Of a DNA stretch of 42,239 bases, positions 1,563-18,133 are shown in pieces (position 1 is the stretch's first letter; the number at the start of each line of letters is the position of its first letter). The position numbers and the translations under genes are program-made. Origin of the DNA: a virus; IMG/VR virus record IMGVR_UViG_3300023184_000239, positions 1 through 42,239 of that record. The stretch is one strand, 5' to 3'. The notes under the pieces are model-generated. The model was not told the DNA's origin. It searched no databases and saw only the letters and a program-made list of their open reading frames with translations.

Positions 1563-4500
1563 ATGGCCAATATCGCTAATAGTGTAAGCATCTCAACAAA
1601 TCTAAATGTATCTCCGTATTATGATGATTTCGATGAAACGAAAAATTTTCATCGCATTCTCTTTAGACCTGGTCTTGCGGTGCAGGCGCGCGAATTGACA
1701 CAAATTCAATCTATATTACAAAATCAGATTACTCGTTTCGCTCGAAATATATTTAAAGAAGGATCTATAGTCCAAGGATGTCTTCCAAAAGTTTATACTA
1801 ATGCTCGATATATAAAATTACGTGATAATTCATCTACTGGTCAGTCAGTAAATGCTGCATCATTTTTAGGAAAAACTATAACTGGATCTACGAACAAAGT
1901 TAAAGCGATAGTCGTGGATACTTCAGCGGGTGCTGAAGCAAATACTCCAGATTATAAAACTTTATTTGTGACATATCTGAGTGGAAATACTAACGGAGTA
2001 AGAACTATTGGAAATTCCGAAATTATTACTGCTTCTGGTGGGCTAAGCGCAAATTCAATTGTATCTGGTGCAGACGGACTTAGTAGTAGAGTTCGCATAG
2101 AAGAAGGAATAATTTTTGCGAAAGACCATCTCATTAGAGTAGATGCGCAAGAATTAATTTTAGATAAATATTCTTCATTTCCTTCGTATAGAGTAGGTTT
2201 TGAAATAGAAGAATCGATCATCACAGAACAAAATGATGCGACGCTTTTAGATCCAGCTTCCGGATCGTATAATTACGCAGCTCCTGGTTCAGCAAGACTG
2301 AAATTGAATGCTATTATCAAAAAATATCCATTTGATGCAGCTGTGTCTAATAATTTTATAGAACTTCTTCAAATTAAAAATGGAGAGGAAATTCGTCTTG
2401 TAAAAGATACTGAATATAATGTCATCAGAAAAGAATTGGCAAGAAGAACATATGATGAATCTGGAGATTATATTGTTAACGGGATGATTCCGAGACTTCG
2501 TGATCATTTGAATACTGGTAGTAATTATGGAGTATATGCTTCTTCCGCGACTGGAAATACTCAATATCTTGTGGTCGAGGTCGGATCAGGTATGGCATTC
2601 GTAAAAGGATATGAAGTTGAAAAAATATCAAGTTCTGGAGTTACTATTCCTAAAGGTAATGATATCAATCGTGTAAATGGTGGAACTATTCTTGCAGATT
2701 ATGGTAACTATGTTTATGTCAATAACGTCGTTGGAAAATGGGATGTAAATGCACAAGCACCAGTTTCGCTACGAAGTGCATTTTCCAATTCCATACCTAC
2801 TTCAAACTATTCCACAACAAATTTGCCTGGAAGTGAATTAGGAACAGCTAGAGTTCGTGCAATTGAATACTATACTGGAAATCCTGGAACAGCTGCAGCT
2901 GTTTATAAATTATATCTAACGGATATAAAAATAACTGCAAAAAATAGTTCATTCAGTGCAGTAAACTCTATCGGATTTAATGCAGGTGGTGCAGCTGCTA
3001 ATAGTGCATTACCTCAAGGGAAAGCTGATATTCAAAATGCAAATGGATTAAATGCGAACACAACGGATCCTTCGTTCGATTATGCTGTATACAACATACC
3101 AGCAAAAGCAATTAAAACCATAAGAAACACAGCTGGTGCTGTAGATACAAATTTTCAATTCTATAAATCTTTTGATGTGTCTATAGCTATAACTGGTCAA
3201 GTTACTGTTGATACAGCTATTGCGTCTGAAACTTTTTCTGGATCTGGAGTTTTAAGTGATAGTGCAACAAGAACAAATTTTTATCTCGTTTCGCGAGGTT
3301 CTGCAAATACATCGACTTTAACAGGAACAGTTACGATTACAAATGGAAGTGCCACTGTTGCCGGATCTGGAACTACATTTCTTACTCAAGTAAGTCCTGG
3401 CGATAATATTGCAACAACTCCAACAAATAAATTCTCTGTAAAATCTGTTGAAAATAATACGTCTTTAACTTTAGAGAAGACTGCAGGTAGTTCAACAAGT
3501 GGTGCATATCATAAGAGATTTATAGCTGGTCAAGTTATCGATCTAGCTGAATACGGGCGCAACGGAGCTAGATCTATTAATATAACATCACCAACAACAG
3601 CTTTGATTAACTTGAACGAAACAATGTCAACATTAAATGCTACTGTTGTATGTAAATTAACAAAAACTTCTGGACAAGAAGCATCAAAGACAATTAATAG
3701 AAGTCGACTTGTTGAACTTCGTGCTGGTACTGGTGGGGGATACACGGGAAATACAACTGGTCCGTGGCCACTTGGTTTGGCAGATGGATTTAAATTAGTT
3801 TCAGTTCGTCAAAAATCTGGAACTAGATTCGCAACACTGACAGAAGGAACAGATGTAACTTCACATTTCAAATTAGATACTGGAATGTTGGATAATATGT
3901 ATGATCACGCCAGTCTTGTAAAAAAATCGACGAGTGGATTATCTATCGCAGCTAATGATAGATTTTTAGTAACATTAGATCATTTTACACATAGCACTGC
4001 TTCTGGTGTTGGATATCTTTCTGTAGATTCTTATCCAGTCAATGATGCAACTGCCGCAACTGATACAACGAAAATATACACATATGAAATTCCTATATTT
4101 GTTTCGTCTGTCGACGGAATTTCATATGATCTAAGAAATTCCATAGATACACGACCACGTATGACGGATACTGCGAACGCAGTAACATCGCTTACAAATA
4201 TTTCTACTAATCCGGCAAGATCTACAGCATTCATTGAACCTACAGGTGGTTTGCATTTTCCTGTAGTTGCTTCTAGTTACACTATAGATTATGATTATTA
4301 TTTAAAACGTAGAGACGCAATCGTATTAAACTCATCTGGAATTTTTTCGGCTATACAAGGAAGTTCATCATTATTTCCAATAACACCTAAAATCCCAGAA
4401 GATAGTATGCATGTTGCAACAATCTTAGTTTCGCAATATCCTTCATTGACTCAAGATAATTCTAGAATAGTTAGTCGACAAGACTTGTCATGTAGTGTAG

Positions 4501-7500
4501 AAAAAATAAAAAATGACCGATATACAATGAGAGACATCGGAGCGATCAAAGAGAGAGTAGATAATTTAGAATATTATACATCATTAAATTTATTAGAGAA
4601 AGATGCAAAAGCTCTATTAATTCCAGACGTTAATGGTCTTGATAGATTCAAAAACGGAATTTTAGTTGATTCATTTACTGGTCATAATATCGGTAATGTT
4701 TTTGATTCAGATTATAAAATATCAATCGATTCTGCTGAGGGCACTGCTCGCCCACCATTTAAAATGGACAATATCGAGATGTTTTATAATACAGCAAATA
4801 GTTCAAATATTGTAAGAAATAATGTTACTACTGCTGGAGTTTCTAGAGATCAGACAGTGTATATCTCTAATTCACAAGTGAAATTCTCAAACTTATCTAC
4901 ACTTACTTCTGGAGCATCAACAGCGACATTAAGATTTCAAGTCGATAATAAATTATATATTGAAAATGCTACGGGAAATTTTTCTAATGGAACAACAGTA
5001 ACTAGTGGAAGCAAAACTGCTGTAATAAATCGCATAGATTTAACTATACCAAATGATTTAATTACACTTCCATATTCTCACGAAATATTTGGACAAAATC
5101 CATACGCCACAACAACAAGAAATCTAGCTGGTGCTGTTTATAACTTCAAGGGAAAAATAACTCTAACTCCAGATAATGACGTTTGGTGTGATACTATTAA
5201 TCGTCCAGATGTTACCATAAGTTTAGATTTAAATACAGATGCGTGGTTGCATATGCCTAGCGCATGGGGAACTGCGTGGAACGCTTGGAATACTGTAATA
5301 ACTGGCGTGTCGCAAACTGGAACTCGAAATGTTTCACGAGGCACGCGAATCGTTGGCGGTCAGATTTTTGAAGATTTTGATATTATTATAACAGAAGCAG
5401 TTACTACTCAATCTACACGTGGAGGAACAACAAGTAGCGTTGTTGATAAAACTTCAACTCAAACAACAGGGGATTTAGTTAAAGATGTAAATATTCAACC
5501 GTTTATGAGATCTAGATTGATAAATTTTGTTGGAGAAGCACTTAAACGCAATACAAAACTCTATGCATTTTTTGATAACGTAAATGTCACATCATATATT
5601 ACCCCAACGAATTCTTCATTTGCAAATACTGGGATGGAAGGAAGTTCGCTTTCATCAGATTCCAATGGCAGAGTTTATGGACAATTTAGAATACCTAATG
5701 ATAGTGCTCTTAAATTCAGAACAGGAACTAAATCATTCAGATTAACAGATAATCCTACAAATAGCCAGGCATTAGGAAATACAATAACATGCGCAGAAGC
5801 AGCTTATACAGCAGAGGGGTTGATATCTGGCTTACAGGAAACAATAGTATCTACTAGATATCCAGAATTTCAAACAAAGTTCCAAACGGAATCTTCTTTT
5901 GGTTCATTTACTCGAACTAAATCTGGTGGAAGTTTTACAAATAATCTTGGACCAGTTCCAGTGCCATCTGGTGACGACGGCGGCTGGGTCCCAGCCGCAA
6001 CAGATGATCCAATTGCTCAGAGTTTTTTCACTGATTTATCTTCAAGTAGAATAGTAGGTTCTGGATCATTTTTGACTAAAATGGATTTATTCTTTTCAAC
6101 TAAAGATCCAAGCTATCCAGTGATAGTTGAACTTAGAGCATTAGATCCTTTAACTTCACAAATATCTAACGTATGTATTCCTTTTGGAAGAGTGATTTTA
6201 TCCGCTGATCAAATAAATGTTAGTGATGATGGATCTAAACCCACTCCTGTATATTTTCCATCGCCCGTATATCTATTAGATAAACGCGGATATGCGTTCG
6301 TGGTAATTCCTGGAGGAGTCAATCCGAATGCAGCTGCATGGGTTTCTAGAATTGGAGAAAATGATATTGTTACTGGTTCTAGAGTTTCTAGACAACCAGT
6401 TACGGGTGAAATGTTTATATCTCCGAATGATAAAACTTGGGGTGCAGTAATAGAAGAAGATATGAAATACACACTTTATCAAGCGAATTTTGATAACGCT
6501 TCATCAGGTGTTGTGATATTCAAAAATGAAGATCGCGACTATCTATCGATTGCAAACGTATCTAGCGGATTCGCGCGTGCGGGAGAACTAATTCATGGCG
6601 AAACTATACTCCGCGGAACCTTTGCGAACACAAAAACTTTAAGCGTCGCAAATAATACTACATTTGCGCAGGGTATGATTTCTGGAGCAACTGGAACTAT
6701 CACGTCATTCGCAGCAGGACAAGTTAGAGTCAAAAATATTTCGATCGCTAGTAAATTTAAGGGTGGAGAACGTGTTCGTATAAGAACGAATAATGTAACA
6801 ACTGGTGGGATCGTTGGAAACTCTACTGGTGCAATCGTATCTACCGTAACACCAATCGGTCGTATGGCATATTACGATGCAATAACTTCGAGCAACACAT
6901 TCTTGCATCTAGCTAATACATCGTTTATTAATAGTGGACCAGTTCCATTAACTGCTGGTGGATTTTCTAATAATCGTATGTTTGTATCTAACACATTCGT
7001 TACTGGTCAAATCGATGGATACTCCGCTCGTATTGTATCGTTGAATAGTCTTAAAATAGACGTTTTAAAGTTTACTAAAGATTATATACAGCCATCGAAT
7101 ACTGATGTATCCTTTACTGGAAAATTTGCAAAAAGCGTTTCAACGAAAGATTCATCATTCATAAATATTAACACGAATGATAATACAGAATTTGCAGATT
7201 CTCGATACGTATTAAGTCGAAGTGTTGAATCAAATACAGCTGCAAGTGCTTCTGGAATGAATGCTGCGCGTTCGTGTGAAATTAAAGCAACAATTTCAAG
7301 TAGAAATAGACTTGCTTCACCTACACTCGACACGAGAAGAGTTTCAACAACAACGATTGAAAATTTAATTAGTTCAAATACAGATATTGGTTCGACGGAA
7401 GATTATGTTAAATTTGGTGGAAATTCAAAAACAAGATATATCACTCGTAAGGTAACATTAGCAGATGGTCAAGATGCAGAAGATATGATAATATATCTTA

Positions 7501-11771: not shown

Positions 11772-12259
11772 TTAATTTATTGTATTTAGATAATAATGAT
11801 AAAATAATAGAAGAAATAGAAGAAATAGATATTGAGAAGGATTACGATTTAAATAAATTATATTTTGTCGTCGATAATTTTAAAGATAAAATAGGATATC
11901 TTAAAGAAAAAACACAGATAATTTCAATGGATATATCGGATATTTATCGAGAATATAATTTGAATCATTTAGAACATAGCGCAAATACTATCTACACAAT
12001 AAGCGAATCAAAGTTTTTGCTAATGCAATCTGGCTTGGTTGAACATATAAATTTAAAATGTAAAAATAAAATAGAAAACTTATTTTATGCATTAAGAAAT
12101 GATAAGACATTGGAAGAGTTTTTAGAAAAAAGAACACTTGTGATTGAGAAAAAAGAAAATACATTAAAAATTCTTAATGAATGCAGAACTGTTTTAGATA
12201 TATTAAATAATATACAATCATTAAAAGATTATGATATGGATTTAGAAACTATCAAATGA
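11768..12259 (+). CDS. Acidic helical protein of unknown function
   Basis: 163 residues from ATG 11768, which overlaps the oxygenase stop by 4 nt; the in-frame TTG 11744 upstream is less likely. The protein is rich in Glu, Lys, Asn and Ile. It begins with a short beta-like segment (INLLYLDNNDKIIEEIEEID), and residues 85-163 are probably helical or coiled coil (KCKNKIENLFYALRNDKTLE). No known motif is seen. Its stop overlaps the stop of the convergent PP-loop gene by 8 nt, and no terminator lies between them. It ends the plus-strand arm of the island. Confidence 0.55.
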   Translation: MINLLYLDNNDKIIEEIEEIDIEKDYDLNKLYFVVDNFKDKIGYLKEKTQIISMDISDIYREYNLNHLEHSANTIYTISESKFLLMQSGLVEHINLKCKNKIENLFYALRNDKTLEEFLEKRTLVIEKKENTLKILNECRTVLDILNNIQSLKDYDMDLETIK

Positions 12260-13391
12260 TATACTCATTTGTAGATATAAACTTTTCTGAAAACTTATTA
12301 TTATTATACTCTGTAAGTTTAGTTTGAAAATTGTTATATGAACTCAAAAATATATCTTTTTGTATCATATTTCCGTCCCATATCCAATCATCCAATCTAG
12401 ATTTTGCTGAAGATGGAGATTTTCCTGTAGAAAATGTATTTACATCCCAATATGGATACATAAGTTTTTGATAGCCCTTATCAGATAGATATAAATTTAA
12501 TAACTTATTATATCCACGAGAAGAAGGTTTTTGTTGGTAATATGATAGAATTGAATGTAAATTTGTATTTCTTATTTTGAAAAAGTTTTTAATTATATTA
12601 CATTGTTTTATCATTAATTCTGGTAAATCCGGACTAATACAAAAAAACTCATCGTACCATCCATTATTGTAGTTTCTTTGAACAATTGGAGAAACAACAT
12701 TATCATACGCATCATTGAATGTTAAATAATTATTTCCATTTCTATTATTAAAAACTAGTTTTTCCATACCCCAAAGAAAACAAACTTTTTTTCCAGAAAG
12801 AATTAAATTTTTCCACTTATCTACATTATGCCTCAATAAAGATTTTGCAATATTATTTGGTGAAATATTAAAATTCATATCATATAGTATATGTTCATGC
12901 CGATCATTAGTAGATAAATAATCCATGATAAATTTAGAAAAATCTATCACTGTATAATCGAATTTATATTTTTCTGAAAGAGTTATAATGTTTGGAATTG
13001 CTACAGTATATTGTTCTATATTTGCATAGCTATCTTTAACTTTAGACCCTTCGAGAGATACAAGTGTTGCAACTTCATCTAATTTACATTCAGAATTGAT
13101 CCACTGCATTAGCATATTATGACTATCAGATCCACCGCTATAGAAAAGAACAACGTAATCATAAGAGTTTCTAATTTGTCTGCATCTTAATTTATATAAT
13201 TCATTTAAAGATACATCTATCTCTTTAGAAAAATCTACTTTTAAAAATACTTCGTCATTATAATTCCAATGAATATTTTTTTTATTTTTTGCAGCACATT
13301 CTATTGCTTCTATTCTACTATATGTTTTATATTCACCAACTTGATAAAAACCAAATTTATCTGGAGAATATATTTGAATATTATTGTTCAT
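12252..13391 (-). CDS. PP-loop ATP-pyrophosphatase-like protein (divergent member)
   Basis: 379 residues. FYSGGSDS at residues 83-90 is the SGGxDS signature of PP-loop (N-type ATP-pyrophosphatase) enzymes such as asparagine synthetase, GMP synthetase, QueC, TtcA and WbpG-like amidotransferases. These enzymes adenylate a substrate before amide or sulfur transfer. The N-terminal 80 residues contain IYSPDKFGFYQVGEYKTYSR, a small domain preceding the loop. The C-terminal 200 residues are Asn/Tyr/Lys-rich with no recognised motif. There is no glutaminase domain and no CxxC. It is the last gene of a three-gene minus-strand operon and overlaps the preceding gene by 4 nt. The substrate is unknown. 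Only the PP-loop assignment is well supported. Confidence 0.7.
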   Translation of the reverse strand: MNNNIQIYSPDKFGFYQVGEYKTYSRIEAIECAAKNKKNIHWNYNDEVFLKVDFSKEIDVSLNELYKLRCRQIRNSYDYVVLFYSGGSDSHNMLMQWINSECKLDEVATLVSLEGSKVKDSYANIEQYTVAIPNIITLSEKYKFDYTVIDFSKFIMDYLSTNDRHEHILYDMNFNISPNNIAKSLLRHNVDKWKNLILSGKKVCFLWGMEKLVFNNRNGNNYLTFNDAYDNVVSPIVQRNYNNGWYDEFFCISPDLPELMIKQCNIIKNFFKIRNTNLHSILSYYQQKPSSRGYNKLLNLYLSDKGYQKLMYPYWDVNTFSTGKSPSSAKSRLDDWIWDGNMIQKDIFLSSYNNFQTKLTEYNNNKFSEKFISTNEYII

Positions 13392-14203
13392 ATTAGATAG
13401 GGTTTGAATATATTTAGTAGCTCATTTTTTTTCCATTGTATTCCAGTTTTAAATTTTTTTGATTCTGTCATAGCGTGGTTTATTTTTTGAATATATTCTG
13501 GATATTTATAGTGCATTTTAGTTCTCAGTTCTAATCCATATAATATCGACTTATATTCTTTCCAGCTCATATTTTCACCATCTAAAGTGTTACCACTAAT
13601 CATAGAATAAGTTAATTCAGGAGTGTATGTAAAAAATCCAATTTCATCTCCAAAGTATTCTGAATCATACGCATCATATTCATTAATGCTATATTCACTA
13701 TATTTTATTAATGCAAAACCGTCGCCTATGATATGATCTCCACATATCATAGTTCCCTTATTCTCTTTGACGTAGTTTGCAGCATACGCTCGCGTTGCAG
13801 ATTCAAAACCTATACCATTTATTTTTTTAAATATAAAATTCACACATATATCAATAATTTTATCATTCGAGCATTCAATCACAACTGGCTTTAAAGATAA
13901 TTTTTTACATATCTTAAATGCATATTTCGATTCTTCTTCATTTCCTTCGCACAAAATAATCAGAGGAATTATTGGAATTTTTAATTTTTCAAAACAGACT
14001 AATACATATTCAGAATCAATTCCACCGCTGAGTCCAACATAGAGGTTTTGATATTTTTTTGATATTTTAGTTGCTGCTTCTGCAGCTGCAGTGTGGAACT
14101 CTAATGGTTTAAATGGATATAGATTGAATTTTACATCGTAATCAGACATTAATCCAGATTTAGTAAGATTGTCATTAATCCAATTATTTTCGCTGATGAT
14201 CAT
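13388..14203 (-). CDS. PP-loop ATP-pyrophosphatase-like protein, tandem paralogue B
   Basis: 271 residues. GLSGGIDSE (57-65) is the PP-loop, followed by IPIIPLIILCEGNEEESKYA, typical of the second strand that specifies the substrate in this superfamily. It is close to an asparagine-synthase C-terminal domain in motif style but lacks the glutaminase half. A later conserved block is GIGFESATRAYAANYVKENK followed by MICGDHIIGDG. It is clearly paralogous to the adjacent gene 14203-15024, with long identical stretches such as KYQNLYVGLSGGIDSEYVL. It abuts its upstream paralogue by one shared base (TAATG) and overlaps the downstream gene by 4 nt, so the three are probably coexpressed. The reaction is unknown; amidation or another ATP-dependent transfer is the family expectation. 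Confidence 0.7.
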   Translation of the reverse strand: MIISENNWINDNLTKSGLMSDYDVKFNLYPFKPLEFHTAAAEAATKISKKYQNLYVGLSGGIDSEYVLVCFEKLKIPIIPLIILCEGNEEESKYAFKICKKLSLKPVVIECSNDKIIDICVNFIFKKINGIGFESATRAYAANYVKENKGTMICGDHIIGDGFALIKYSEYSINEYDAYDSEYFGDEIGFFTYTPELTYSMISGNTLDGENMSWKEYKSILYGLELRTKMHYKYPEYIQKINHAMTESKKFKTGIQWKKNELLNIFKPYLI

Positions 14204-14281
14204 TATGAATATATTAGATAGGGTTTGAATATATTTAGTAGCTCATTTTTTTTCCATCGTATTCCAGTTTTAAATTTTTTT
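13390..14281 (-). repeat. Near-identical 71-nt blocks in the duplicated PP-loop genes
   Basis: Positions 13390-13460 and 14211-14281 are the same except for one base (TTCCATTG versus TTCCATCG). They encode the shared C-terminus KFKTGI-WKKNELLNIFKPY. The copies lie 821 nt apart. Other long identical patches occur in the two genes, for example around GCATACGCTCGCGTTGC, so the tandem duplication is recent or maintained by gene conversion. Confidence 0.9.
13503..13510 (-). promoter_or_regulatory. Candidate internal minus-strand late promoter
   Basis: The plus strand reads TATTTATA, so the minus strand reads TATAAATA. It lies inside paralogue B, about 110 nt before the start of the last PP-loop gene at 13391. 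The matching site in paralogue A does not have the octamer. It encodes YKYP, so chance is possible. Confidence 0.3.
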
Positions 14282-15024
14282 AAGTTATGAATAGATGCAA
14301 TTACTTTTCGAATTCTTTCTGGATAACTATAATAAATTTTATCCCTTACTTCTAATGCGAATAATTTTGATTTATATTCTTGCCAGAACATATTTTCACC
14401 ATCTAAAGTATTTCCACTAATCATCGAATAAACCAATTCAGGAGTATATGTAAAAAAGCCAATTTCATCTCCAAAGTGTGCCGAATCATATCCATCCCAT
14501 TCGTTCATAGCATATTCACTATCTTTTAGTAATATATCTCCATCACCAATCATGTGTTCTCCGCAAATTAAAGTTCCCTCATTCTCTTTGACGTAGTTTG
14601 CAGCATACGCTCGCGTTGCGGATTGGAATCCTATACCATTTATTTTTTTGAATATAAAATTTAGACATATATCAATAATTTCATAATTTGAACAAATTAT
14701 AACTTTAGGAGTAATATTTAATTTTTCACATATCTTAAATGCGTATTTTGATTCTTCTTCATTACCTTCACATAATACGATTAAAGGAATTATTGGAATT
14801 TTTAATTTATAAAAACACATCAATACATATTCAGAATCAATTCCACCGCTGAGTCCGACATAAAGGTTTTGATATTTTTTCGAGATTTTTATTGCCGCTT
14901 GTTCTGCAGCTGCATGAAACTCTAATGGTTTGAATGGATATAGATTGAATTTTACATCGTAATCTGATATAAGCCCTGTGGGCGTAAAATTATCATTGAT
15001 CCAATTATTTTCACTAATGATCAT
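14203..15024 (-). CDS. PP-loop ATP-pyrophosphatase-like protein, tandem paralogue A
   Basis: 273 residues from ATG 15024; a GTG at 15033 is in frame. The ATG is preferred because the protein then begins MIISENNWINDN exactly like its tandem copy. The PP-loop LSGGIDSE (residues 58-65) and the blocks LIVLCEGNEEESKYA, SATRAYAANYVKENEG and LICGEHMIGDGD are shared with the copy. Differences concentrate between residues 165 and 190 and near residues 215-250, which could affect substrate specificity. It is the first gene of the minus-strand operon. A minus-strand late promoter octamer (15055-15062) lies 30 nt upstream. The function is unknown beyond ATP-pyrophosphatase chemistry. Confidence 0.7.
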   Translation of the reverse strand: MIISENNWINDNFTPTGLISDYDVKFNLYPFKPLEFHAAAEQAAIKISKKYQNLYVGLSGGIDSEYVLMCFYKLKIPIIPLIVLCEGNEEESKYAFKICEKLNITPKVIICSNYEIIDICLNFIFKKINGIGFQSATRAYAANYVKENEGTLICGEHMIGDGDILLKDSEYAMNEWDGYDSAHFGDEIGFFTYTPELVYSMISGNTLDGENMFWQEYKSKLFALEVRDKIYYSYPERIRKVIASIHNLKKFKTGIRWKKNELLNIFKPYLIYS

Positions 15025-15044
15025 AATTTTCACTTTAAATTCAC

Positions 15045-15052
15045 TATAAATA
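15045..15052 (+). promoter_or_regulatory. Late promoter octamer for the plus-strand gene at 15083
   Basis: An exact TATAAATA lies 30 nt before ATG 15083. It forms one half of a palindrome, TATAAATAGTTATTTATA, at 15045-15062. Confidence 0.75.
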
Positions 15053-15054
15053 GT

Positions 15055-15062
15055 TATTTATA
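15055..15062 (-). promoter_or_regulatory. Late promoter octamer for the minus-strand PP-loop operon
   Basis: The minus strand reads TATAAATA, 30 nt before ATG 15024. It lies only 2 bp from the plus-strand octamer, so the predicted start site of each promoter lies on or beside the other's octamer. Confidence 0.75.
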
Positions 15063-15082
15063 TACAAACACAGGATAATATT

Positions 15083-15460
15083 ATGCCTATCAAGAAAACT
15101 ATAATTCGTGAGAGAACAACTCCAGAATCAAGACTTCCTATTTTAGAAACTAGTGATCGTGAATATATAAAAGAAAAATATCAAAATACTGGAGCAATTT
15201 TATCCATAACTATTACATATAAAAACGCACTAGACGAAGTTGTATTATCTCGAAATCTTGCAACTAAAGAAATTATTGAATATGTATTCAAGGATTATGA
15301 GCAAAAAACCGCTTATAACAAAGATATCGAGATACGAAGAGCCACCATTGCCACTGGATTTCCTAGAGGTAATTTTCTACCAAATGAACTTCGCAATTAC
15401 GGTCCAATCTTACATGCAAATAGCGGAATTTTATTTTCACAAACTGAAGAAGAAATATAA
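15083..15460 (+). CDS. Conserved hypothetical phage protein
   Basis: 125 residues. No known domain is recognised. The N-terminus is basic and acidic (KKTIIRERTTPESRLP). A likely beta-hairpin (AILSITITYKNALDEVVLSR) is followed by a helix (TKEIIEYVFKDYEQKTAY) and a C-terminal tail with GPILHANSGILFSQTEEE. There is no signal peptide or membrane segment. AGGATAATATT precedes the ATG, and a late promoter lies 30 nt upstream. It is the first gene of a short plus-strand unit with the second oxygenase and the radical SAM gene. It may be virion-associated, since it is expressed from a late promoter, but the role is unknown. Confidence 0.55.
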   Translation: MPIKKTIIRERTTPESRLPILETSDREYIKEKYQNTGAILSITITYKNALDEVVLSRNLATKEIIEYVFKDYEQKTAYNKDIEIRRATIATGFPRGNFLPNELRNYGPILHANSGILFSQTEEEI

Positions 15461-15471
15461 AATACACATAT

Positions 15472-16173
15472 ATGATTAAACATTCGATATTTCCGACATT
15501 ATATGGGGAATGGAAATTTCTAGATCACGAAAAATTCAAACAACATTTTAAAGAAACTATTTTTGATTATATTAGAAATAACGGAACAACTAAAAGTGTT
15601 GTCGGAGTAGGTGAGAGAACTAAACATATCGGATTGCATACTATAGATTCATATTCTCCAATATTTCGTTTCGCTTCTGAATGCGTGAGAGAGTATATAC
15701 GAACGATGAATATAGACGATAAATTATATGATCTTTCTCTTGTTAAATCATGGCTGAGTGTTACAGGAACGCCAACAAATATTCATAGCCATGCAGATGC
15801 CCATGTTGTTTTTACTTACTATATCAATATACCCAAAACTTTAGAAAAAAATCTAAGGTTCTATAGAAATCATAATAATATTAATGATCTATATTACTGT
15901 ATGTCTGAATTTAACTGTAAAGAAGAATGGAATGAGTTTAATTGTAAAACTTGGGAGCAGCCTGCTACTGAGGGAGATTTATTTGTTTTTCCGGGAAAGT
16001 TGACTCATGATATCGTTGATAGTTACAGGAAAGAAACTATTGTCGAAGCGTTTGACGAAAACGAATTATTTCAACAAAGAATATGTCTAGCAGGAGACTT
16101 TAATTTAATTTACAGAGAAGCTTCTTCCAATGCTACAGGCACACAGCCAACGAAAAATTGGAGAATGTTTTGA
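15472..16173 (+). CDS. 2OG-Fe(II) oxygenase family protein (second copy type)
   Basis: 233 residues. NIHSHADAHVVFTYYINIP supplies the iron-binding H107-x-D109. GDLFVFPGKLTHDI supplies the distal H179, and R203 in QQRICLAGDFNLIYR fits the 2-oxoglutarate-binding arginine. This matches the putative 2OG-Fe(II) oxygenase type common in marine T4-like phages rather than the P4H type at 11232. The protein ends in NWRMF. A second partial copy of this 3' end occurs after the radical SAM gene (17338-17355), which suggests a rearrangement. It begins 11 nt after the preceding gene and overlaps the radical SAM gene by 4 nt. The substrate is unknown. Confidence 0.8.
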   Translation: MIKHSIFPTLYGEWKFLDHEKFKQHFKETIFDYIRNNGTTKSVVGVGERTKHIGLHTIDSYSPIFRFASECVREYIRTMNIDDKLYDLSLVKSWLSVTGTPTNIHSHADAHVVFTYYINIPKTLEKNLRFYRNHNNINDLYYCMSEFNCKEEWNEFNCKTWEQPATEGDLFVFPGKLTHDIVDSYRKETIVEAFDENELFQQRICLAGDFNLIYREASSNATGTQPTKNWRMF

Positions 16174-17312
16174 TTTCATCATCCTTTTGCCCAGCACCTT
16201 GGCTTTCACTCTTTTATCAATCCAACCATGCATCCCTTTGCTGTGCCAGTCGAGATAAAATTTTATCTAGTCCGAATGATTATATAAAATCTAATTACCT
16301 TCAAGGAATTAAACAACAGTTTCTAGATGGTATTCGTCCATCTACTTGTAATGGTTGTTGGAAAAGAGAAGCCGAAGGCATGCACAGTATTAGAAAATAT
16401 TACACAGAAAAATATGCAAAGTTGTGTAAAAATTTTAATCTAACGTCAAATGACCATTTGGGTACCAAATGGATGGAATTGCGTATCAGTAATCAGTGTA
16501 ATTTTAGTTGCAGAATGTGCGACACTGATTCTAGTTCAATTTTACAAAAAGAAGTTGAAAAAAACGAAAAACTGAAAAAATATTTTACAATTAGTTCTGA
16601 TGCTGACTACAAAATTTCTTCCAGAAACTTCGATCAAATACTTGAACAATTAAAGAACACTGATAGACTAATTTTAACTGGTGGTGAACCAATGTTGATT
16701 AAAAAATATTATGATGTGCTTGACTATCTAATATCAATCGGCAAGCAAGACATTCAGTTGTTAATCTTCACTAACTGTAGTGTATACAACCCGATCTTCA
16801 TTAGTAGATTGAAACAGTTTAAAAATTTATATTTAAATTTAAGTATTGATGCAGTTGGAAAAACAGCAGAATACGTGCGATATGGAACAGATTGGCCAGT
16901 GGTAGAAAAAAATATTTTATTGTTTTGTGAAGAATTCGAAAATGTATCAATTCACTCTACAATAACGTCCTATGGAATATTAGACTATACAGCAACAGCA
17001 ATGTTTTTTCAGTCATTATCAGCTATGTTTCCATTTTTACAGTTTAAAGCTCATGTAGCAACAAGACCTATGCCTTTAAGATTTGAAAATTTACCGCCTG
17101 AGATGAAAATACAAGCCAAATTTCAAATTAATAATGCGCTTCAAATCCTCCAAGGATCTAATTTATCTAAAATTATCATCGAACTAGAAAGTATATTAAA
17201 AAGACTAGATATCATTGGCGAACCTGAAAAGTTTTTAGAATTCACTGAAACGCTTGATAAAGTGAGGGGGCAATCGTTCATAAACTTGCAGTCTAAAATA
17301 AACAATCTGTGA
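16170..17312 (+). CDS. Radical SAM protein with N-terminal twitch-like cysteine domain
   Basis: 380 residues from TTG 16170, chosen because GGAG sits 6 nt upstream and the start overlaps the previous stop by 4 nt. TTG 16158 is an in-frame alternative without a ribosome site. C110-x3-C114-x2-C117 (CNFSCRMC) binds the radical SAM iron-sulfur cluster, and LTGGEPML (near 169-176) is the SAM-binding GGE motif. Extra cysteines at the N-terminus (FCPAPW, SLCC, and CNGCWKREAEG) fit the twitch domain for an auxiliary cluster, as in the N_Twi_rSAM family of phages and marine bacteria. The chemistry is SAM-dependent radical modification of a peptide or small molecule. The target is unknown. 18-bp direct repeats flank it. 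Confidence 0.85.
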   Translation: MISSSFCPAPWLSLFYQSNHASLCCASRDKILSSPNDYIKSNYLQGIKQQFLDGIRPSTCNGCWKREAEGMHSIRKYYTEKYAKLCKNFNLTSNDHLGTKWMELRISNQCNFSCRMCDTDSSSILQKEVEKNEKLKKYFTISSDADYKISSRNFDQILEQLKNTDRLILTGGEPMLIKKYYDVLDYLISIGKQDIQLLIFTNCSVYNPIFISRLKQFKNLYLNLSIDAVGKTAEYVRYGTDWPVVEKNILLFCEEFENVSIHSTITSYGILDYTATAMFFQSLSAMFPFLQFKAHVATRPMPLRFENLPPEMKIQAKFQINNALQILQGSNLSKIIIELESILKRLDIIGEPEKFLEFTETLDKVRGQSFINLQSKINNL

Positions 17313-17354
17313 GCATCATCAAAGACCAACGTAGAGATTGGAGAATGTTTTGAT
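17313..17354 (+). pseudogene. Fossil 3' end of an oxygenase-like gene
   Basis: After the radical SAM stop, one frame reads IIKDQRRDWRMF then TGA (17353). This repeats the NWRMF-stop end of the 15472-16173 oxygenase, and the last 18 nt are identical to it. It has no start and only about a dozen codons. It looks like the original gene end left behind when the radical SAM gene was inserted. Confidence 0.6.
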
Positions 17355-17362
17355 TATAAATA
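17355..17362 (+). promoter_or_regulatory. Late promoter octamer before gp13
   Basis: An exact TATAAATA lies 27 nt before ATG 17390; a related CATAAATA follows at 17366. It marks the start of the neck/terminase transcription unit. Confidence 0.75.
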
Positions 17363-17389
17363 GGTCATAAATACAATTATGGAGCTATT

Positions 17390-18133
17390 ATGGCACTTCC
17401 TGTATCAAGACAAGAATTTAAGGAGTATTGCCTACGTAGACTAGGATATCCTGTTGTTGACATCAACGTAGATGAGCAGCAAATTCAGGATAGAATCGAC
17501 GATGCATTAGCTTATTATCGCGATTATCACTATGATGGAACTGAACATCTATACTTATCGTATTTGATGACTCCAACAGATATTACAAATAGATATGTAA
17601 CGCTTCCAGAATCAATTCAATCAGTGACATCTATATTCGCTACTGGCGGAAACTCTAATATTAACGGATTGTTTAATATCAGATATCAGATGCATCTAAA
17701 CGATTTATTTGACTTTTCTAATTCTGCATCTGGTGCATATGTTATGGCGATGCGGCACGTTGAAACATTGGAAGAAATTTTTAATGGTAAAAAAGCTATA
17801 CGATATAATCGCCATATGGATAAATTATTTTTAGATTTAGATTGGACAACTGATGTATTTGCGGGTCAATACATAATTGTAGATTGTTATGGTACAGTAG
17901 ATCCAGAGAATTACACAGACGTTTATGCTGATGTATTTTTATTAAAATACGCTACAGCTTTAATTAAACGCCAATGGGGAATGAATCTATCAAAATTTGA
18001 AGGCATGCAACTTCCAGGCGGAATAACGTTCAATGGGCGAGTCATTCTTCAAGATGCGAATGAAGAAGTTCAGAGATTAGAAGATACAATGCTAAGTTCA
18101 CAGTCATTACCTGTGTTTGATATGGTCGGATAG
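17390..18133 (+). CDS. gp13: Neck protein gp13 (head completion)
   Basis: 247 residues. The N-terminus SRQEFKEYCLRRLGYPVVDI, then QIQDRIDDALAYYRDYHYDG, and the middle RYNRHMDKLFLDLDW with a later DVFLLKYATALIKRQWGMNL are the conserved pattern of gp13 in T4-like phages. Gp13 with gp14 completes the head after DNA packaging and forms the neck to which the tail binds. It is shorter than T4 gp13 (about 309 residues), as is usual in marine relatives. It is followed after 2 nt by gp14, in the canonical order. Confidence 0.88.
   Translation: MALPVSRQEFKEYCLRRLGYPVVDINVDEQQIQDRIDDALAYYRDYHYDGTEHLYLSYLMTPTDITNRYVTLPESIQSVTSIFATGGNSNINGLFNIRYQMHLNDLFDFSNSASGAYVMAMRHVETLEEIFNGKKAIRYNRHMDKLFLDLDWTTDVFAGQYIIVDCYGTVDPENYTDVYADVFLLKYATALIKRQWGMNLSKFEGMQLPGGITFNGRVILQDANEEVQRLEDTMLSSQSLPVFDMVG

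Follow-up and report, generated by a model that had tools for sequence, protein, structure and literature searches.

The site at positions 15045–15062 of a virus fragment, the entire IMG/VR record IMGVR_UViG_3300023184_000239 (42,239 bases, a phage fragment and not a complete genome; hereafter the window), has the 18-base-pair (bp) sequence TATAAATAGTTATTTATA, formed by two exact T4-type late promoter octamers on opposite strands with 2 bp between them. It lies inside a six-gene insert located between tail genes and gp13, in which three genes are read leftward and three rightward. We consider it likely that the site is a bidirectional gp55-type (T4-type) late promoter serving both arms of the insert from a compact spacer. 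Judged by its sequence and geometry, it belongs, as a tight case with its 2-bp gap, to a recurring class, the crossing divergent late promoters of T4-like phages. The elements of the site are as follows (nt, nucleotides):

15025–15082, no strand: divergent spacer between the arms, 58 bp, containing TATAAATAGTTATTTATA, read from the sequence
15045–15052, plus strand: late promoter octamer TATAAATA of the rightward arm, exact match, 30 nt before ATG 15083
15055–15062, minus strand: late promoter octamer TATAAATA of the leftward PP-loop arm, exact match, 30 nt before ATG 15024
15053–15054, no strand: gap between the octamers, 2 bp (GT), read from the sequence
15058, plus strand: predicted rightward transcription start, by arithmetic from an octamer at −13 to −6
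15049, minus strand: predicted leftward transcription start, by the same arithmetic

The octamer position of −13 to −6 relative to the start is that given in the accessible part of PMC1524935. With this spacing each predicted start falls within the opposite octamer, and the two starts would be 9 bp apart (10 if counted inclusively). An earlier description of the stretch, made from its letters alone (the sequence-only reading), had reported the two exact octamers 2 bp apart and the starts inside the opposite octamers; both points are borne out. It had also placed each octamer 30 nt from its gene, which is correct for ATG 15083 and ATG 15024. The longest open reading frame (ORF) on the left opens at GTG 15033, only 21 nt from the octamer; the closest relative holding the spacer (L002, see below) has no GTG at that place and the protein alignment begins at the ATG, hence ATG 15024 is used for the distance.

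The octamer TATAAATA occurs 13 times in the window, compared with a mean of 7.0 in dinucleotide shuffles, where 13 was reached by one shuffle in 100; shuffles and Markov models together give a chance expectation of about 7–8. Nine of these 13 octamers are located 23–43 nt upstream of a start codon, including those of gp13, gp18, and gp23 (the minus-strand octamer of the site being counted to ATG 15024), and the octamer is thus a credible late promoter in this phage. Two marks of T4-type late promoters are found here, namely the exact octamer, on both strands, and placement upstream of late/structural genes. When up to two mismatches to the pattern TATAAATANNTATTTATA are allowed, 15045–15062 is the sole match in the window. 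Exact palindromes are expected only 0.0003–0.0004 times (Markov order 1–3), a value that overstates the surprise, since in a spacer of 58 bp any two octamers placed about 30 nt from the flanking starts are bound to form a near-palindrome. Sigma70 promoters were considered and rejected, as promoter-like matches in 12000–17600 equal the shuffle expectation (40 vs. 38.6).

Scans for relatives (with the 125-amino-acid protein of the right arm, PP-loop-like protein a, and alignments A1, A3, and A4) yielded four contigs in total. One of the four, 3300043409_001419 (L002), has the same arms and keeps the spacer with both exact octamers: all 18 bases, including the GT gap, are identical and lie inside a 21-base identical run, with L002 positions 5961–5968 and 5971–5978 identical to the plus-strand and minus-strand octamers of the window, respectively. 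The five flanking genes are 67–93% identical in protein (67% for the homolog of the 125-amino-acid protein, 93% for the oxygenase), and their pooled fourfold-degenerate sites are identical at 146/223 (65%). At that rate, the chance of 18/18 identity is about 5 in 10,000, a nominal value that treats the sites as independent. The gap of 2 is the same in both, despite the left side being 10 nt shorter in L002, where the octamers stand 32 nt (right) and 20 nt (left) from the starts. Conservation of both octamers and of the gap, which the sequence-only reading had proposed as a check, is therefore seen in the one close relative with the spacer; the distance of 30 nt on each side is not conserved there. 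The other two contigs do not reach the spacer (L004 breaks off within the PP-loop gene, and in L128 just 415 bp precede the oxygenase), and the more distant 3300009159_000473 (L131) still has its PP-loop and 125-amino-acid-like genes in divergent orientation.

The same layout recurs in complete T4-like phages. We searched for exact octamer pairs on opposite strands with gaps of 0–30 in 16 complete records (T4, taken by accession, and 15 picked for diversity from a list of 60). Crossing pairs are found at 10 sites in 7/16 records, back-to-back pairs at one site in 1/16; backward-read controls give 0 and 2, respectively. All 10 crossing sites are located between divergent genes:

Gene 4/53, crossing pairs: T4, G4507, CkP1, Pm5461, JD18, DLP1
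Gene 4/tail tube cap, crossing pair: C48C1
inh/uvsW, crossing pairs: CkP1, Pm5461, JD18

The remaining nine of the 16 records have no exact crossing pair, and variant octamers may account for this absence. In a wider set of 42 records searched with gaps of 0–12, crossing pairs occur in 7/42 and back-to-back pairs in 1/42; 22 of the 42 are portal contigs, mostly fragments, and give zero matches. The window shows the same arrangement, with divergent genes, octamers 30 and 30 nt from the starts, and a gap of 2.

The gene-4 spacers were further compared in 80 gene-4 loci from IMG/VR, taken among the matches listed, whose rows are related and not independent. Three loci with too little upstream sequence and three in which the rule applied gave no divergent ATG ORF were excluded, and the remainder gave 55 distinct spacers. 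In 27/55 spacers the two octamers are exact matches lying 10 nt or more from their starts; all 27 are crossing, with gaps of 7–28, and gap 9 is seen in 18/27. With variants allowed, 53/55 spacers are crossing, although the site rule prefers about 30 nt and so favours crossing in short spacers. A side observation concerns the 9-bp core of these spacers: that of L255 (2964–2988) is the exact reverse complement of that of L254 (2963–2987), 9/9 compared with 4/9 in direct orientation. The sequences read as if the segment flanked by the 8-bp inverted octamers had been inverted, in phages whose gp4 genes are 84% identical in DNA.

The gap-2 palindrome itself occurs in at least 124 places in at least 120 viral stretches, and three of the places listed are flanked on each side by an ORF start at promoter distance: L005, which is a gene-4 locus, L039, and L006. 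In L039 (1707–1724) the 18-mer is identical and separates an ORF of phrog_37840 from a gene of phrog_461. The L039 site adjoins a gene of an exonuclease family, and this contig comes from the same metagenome number as L131.

The order of the octamers follows from the relation gap = d(+) + d(−) − spacer, where d(+) and d(−) are the octamer-to-start distances: with both distances about 30 and spacers of 41–58 bp, the octamers must cross. Accordingly, inh/uvsW shows gap-6 crossing in three phages with a 55–58-bp spacer and a back-to-back pair in DLP1, where the spacer is 81 bp and the distances are 29 and 30 nt. On this sequence comparison, spacer length sets the octamer order, and compactness explains the crossing geometry. 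The steadiness of the gaps, with 9 maintained across listed gene-4 spacers 41 to 57 bp long and 2 in the window and L002, runs contrary to a purely passive view and could be due to selection or shared descent.

Several observations weigh against a bidirectional late promoter or narrow its basis. Promoter activity at the site is something that we infer. A comparable spacer with exact octamers is present in one relative only; the L131 spacer (PP-loop-like proteins a and b 44–46% identical) has no exact octamer, its best variants being TATAGATA or ACTAAATA in one orientation and GCTAAATA in the opposite one, too weak to claim a promoter pair. The 2-bp gap is tighter than the 6–15 bp of the complete phages, and one direction might be weakened or biased as a result. 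Octamer variants are needed for about half of the gene-4 set, whose rows are mutually related, and one gene-4 locus, L313, has two exact octamers back-to-back, one just 5 nt from its start, and was left out of the exact pairs by the 10-nt rule.

If the site is indeed a bidirectional late promoter, late RNA polymerase with gp55 would bind either octamer, in either orientation; firing to the left would transcribe the PP-loop arm, and firing to the right the arm with the 125-amino-acid protein, the oxygenase, and the radical SAM protein. The two complexes would melt nearly the same DNA, and since the melted stretches would coincide, both directions should not be open at once and loading would probably proceed one at a time. 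Over the late phase both arms would be expressed, through alternating initiation and many genome copies. Sharing of rate between the arms is plausible, if clamp-activated late promoters are strong enough to compete. Protein output may in addition be biased toward the right arm, given a Shine–Dalgarno-like sequence on the right side only. There, AGGA precedes ATG 15083, with AAGGAGG at the corresponding place in L002, while no obvious Shine–Dalgarno sequence is read for the left arm in either phage.

Among the other explanations, the one given the most room, although still an unlikely one, is that the sliding clamp selects the direction: the orientation of gp45, set by the strand with a 3′ end or nick, would pick the promoter, and replication polarity would set the ratio of the arms. 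In T4 in vitro, the nicked strand determines the direction of activation, and gp45 occupies the upstream edge of the promoter complex (PMC2988020, accessible part), and crossing pairs offer a promoter at one spot to clamps of either orientation. If so, the 18-bp site would split output between the arms by the strand copied or nicked, and with a 2-bp gap the bubbles would coincide and the choice would be absolute at each firing. However, the sequence offers no test of this, the same would apply to two divergent promoters standing apart, and compact spacers already account for the layout. Slightly less probable is that one octamer is functional and the other a by-product of A+T-rich sequence. 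The chance expectation of about 7–8 octamers in the window and the lack of an obvious Shine–Dalgarno sequence on the left, in this phage and in L002, are consistent with such a by-product; it does not sit well with the retention of 18/18 bases in L002, where fourfold sites agree at 65%, with the normal late-promoter distance of both octamers, or with the ratio of crossing to back-to-back pairs, 10 to 1, in complete phages.

The sequence-only reading had further proposed that mutually exclusive firing makes the site a stochastic either/or switch between the arms. The part of that proposal describing divergent late promoters stands in qualified form, as a functional-looking pair on shared DNA with probable polymerase exclusion; the switch itself we regard as very improbable. 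The overlap of predicted starts and octamers makes steric exclusion likely. Yet gp4 and gp53, which belong to a single virion, are served by the same layout, and crossing pairs at gene 4/53 and inh/uvsW join arms that both have virion or core functions. Many genome copies late in infection would average out individual choices. Family searches of the six arm genes revealed no feedback or regulator gene and no DNA-binding family match; a regulator elsewhere in the phage is possible. Exclusion between opposing polymerases is documented for bidirectional promoters of Escherichia coli in the accessible part of PMC12825309; there, however, the basal activity of five such promoters was too low for competition, which was seen once strong activation was applied in one direction, and cell-to-cell noise was lower under interference. 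Least probable of all is that the palindrome is a hairpin, a terminator, or a protein-binding site and not a promoter pair. As an inverted repeat it is near-perfect, with 2 bases at its centre, but the spacer folds unremarkably as single-stranded DNA (z −0.62, 44/200 shuffles equally good), a scan of 12000–17600 for terminators found no terminator-like site, and the site is upstream of both genes at promoter distance.

Among the nearest known counterparts of the proposed bidirectional promoter is T4 gene 4/53 (NC_000866, 77349–77371), shared with other Straboviridae, which likewise has two exact TATAAATA octamers crossing on opposite strands, 26–28 nt from the genes in a 47-bp spacer. It differs in its gap (7 vs. 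2), in predicted starts that fall in the gap and not within the opposite octamer, and in having virion assembly genes in both arms. For Proteus phage Pm5461 (NC_028762, 71480–71504 and 117023–117044), each crossing pair carries promoter annotations by the depositors on both of its octamers; these pairs have gaps of 9 and 6 and stand between other genes. The prokaryotic bidirectional promoters described by Warman, Grainger and colleagues (PMC12825309, as far as accessible) have, as would be expected of the site here, a shared melted region, starts a few bp apart, and steric exclusion; in E. coli the starts are commonly 18, 10, or 23 bp apart, and the separation of about 10 bp predicted for the window corresponds to one of these classes. 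The studied promoters are of the sigma70 type with a −35 element, in contrast to the putative clamp-activated phage late sigma of the window with a −10-like octamer only. Conjugative plasmid pLS20 (PMC4207663) also has overlapping divergent promoters between two gene sets, by its title a genetic switch with DNA looping; in the window no operator was seen, and no gene among the six arm genes was recognized as a regulator acting at the overlapping promoters. Searches of the open-access literature turned up no description of crossing late promoters of T4-like phages as a class.

The genes of the two arms are listed below:

12252–13391, minus strand: third gene of the left arm, 379 amino acids, SGGSDS motif
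13388–14203, minus strand: PP-loop-like protein b, tandem copy, 79% identical to PP-loop-like protein a
14203–15024, minus strand: PP-loop-like protein a, ATG start at 15024, SGGIDS motif, weak similarity to NAD synthetase
15083–15460, plus strand: first gene of the right arm, 125 amino acids, no family match
15472–16173, plus strand: 2OG-Fe(II) oxygenase (PF13759, phrog_81)
16158–17312, plus strand: twitch-domain radical SAM protein (NF033640)

The surrounding window holds a T4-like structural block (gp13, gp14, gp15, terminase, sheath, portal, gp23, and uvsW-like genes). The DNA of 12252–17362 has no match in the phage collection, and the structure model of PP-loop-like protein a is poor (mean predicted local distance difference test score, pLDDT, 52.8). 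L002 has no second PP-loop copy and no radical SAM gene between the oxygenase and gp13. Two PP-loop copies are present in L004 (one cut by the contig end) and one in L003. In L004, an exact octamer (688–695) overlaps the end of the first copy, just ahead of the second, a possible internal late promoter by its position. L131 encodes three small proteins related to the 125-amino-acid protein (3215–3553, 6043–6354, and 6333–6689), of which BLAST links two and alignment alone the third (29% identity); one of the three genes is divergent from gp13. Ahead of gp13 in the window, 17355–17373 carries tandem octamer-like sites, TATAAATA and CATAAATA, with 3 bp between them, and a similar tandem lies ahead of gp13 in L128 (1122–1140).

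Together, the window and the complete phages suggest that overlapping two-way promoters, a kind lately reported for host sigma factors, also occur regularly among the clamp-activated late promoters of T4-like phages, T4 included. Since such promoters lack a −35 element and are activated in a direction that follows clamp orientation, crossing sites would be a clean system for studying how polymerases share a melted region and whether replication polarity selects the direction.
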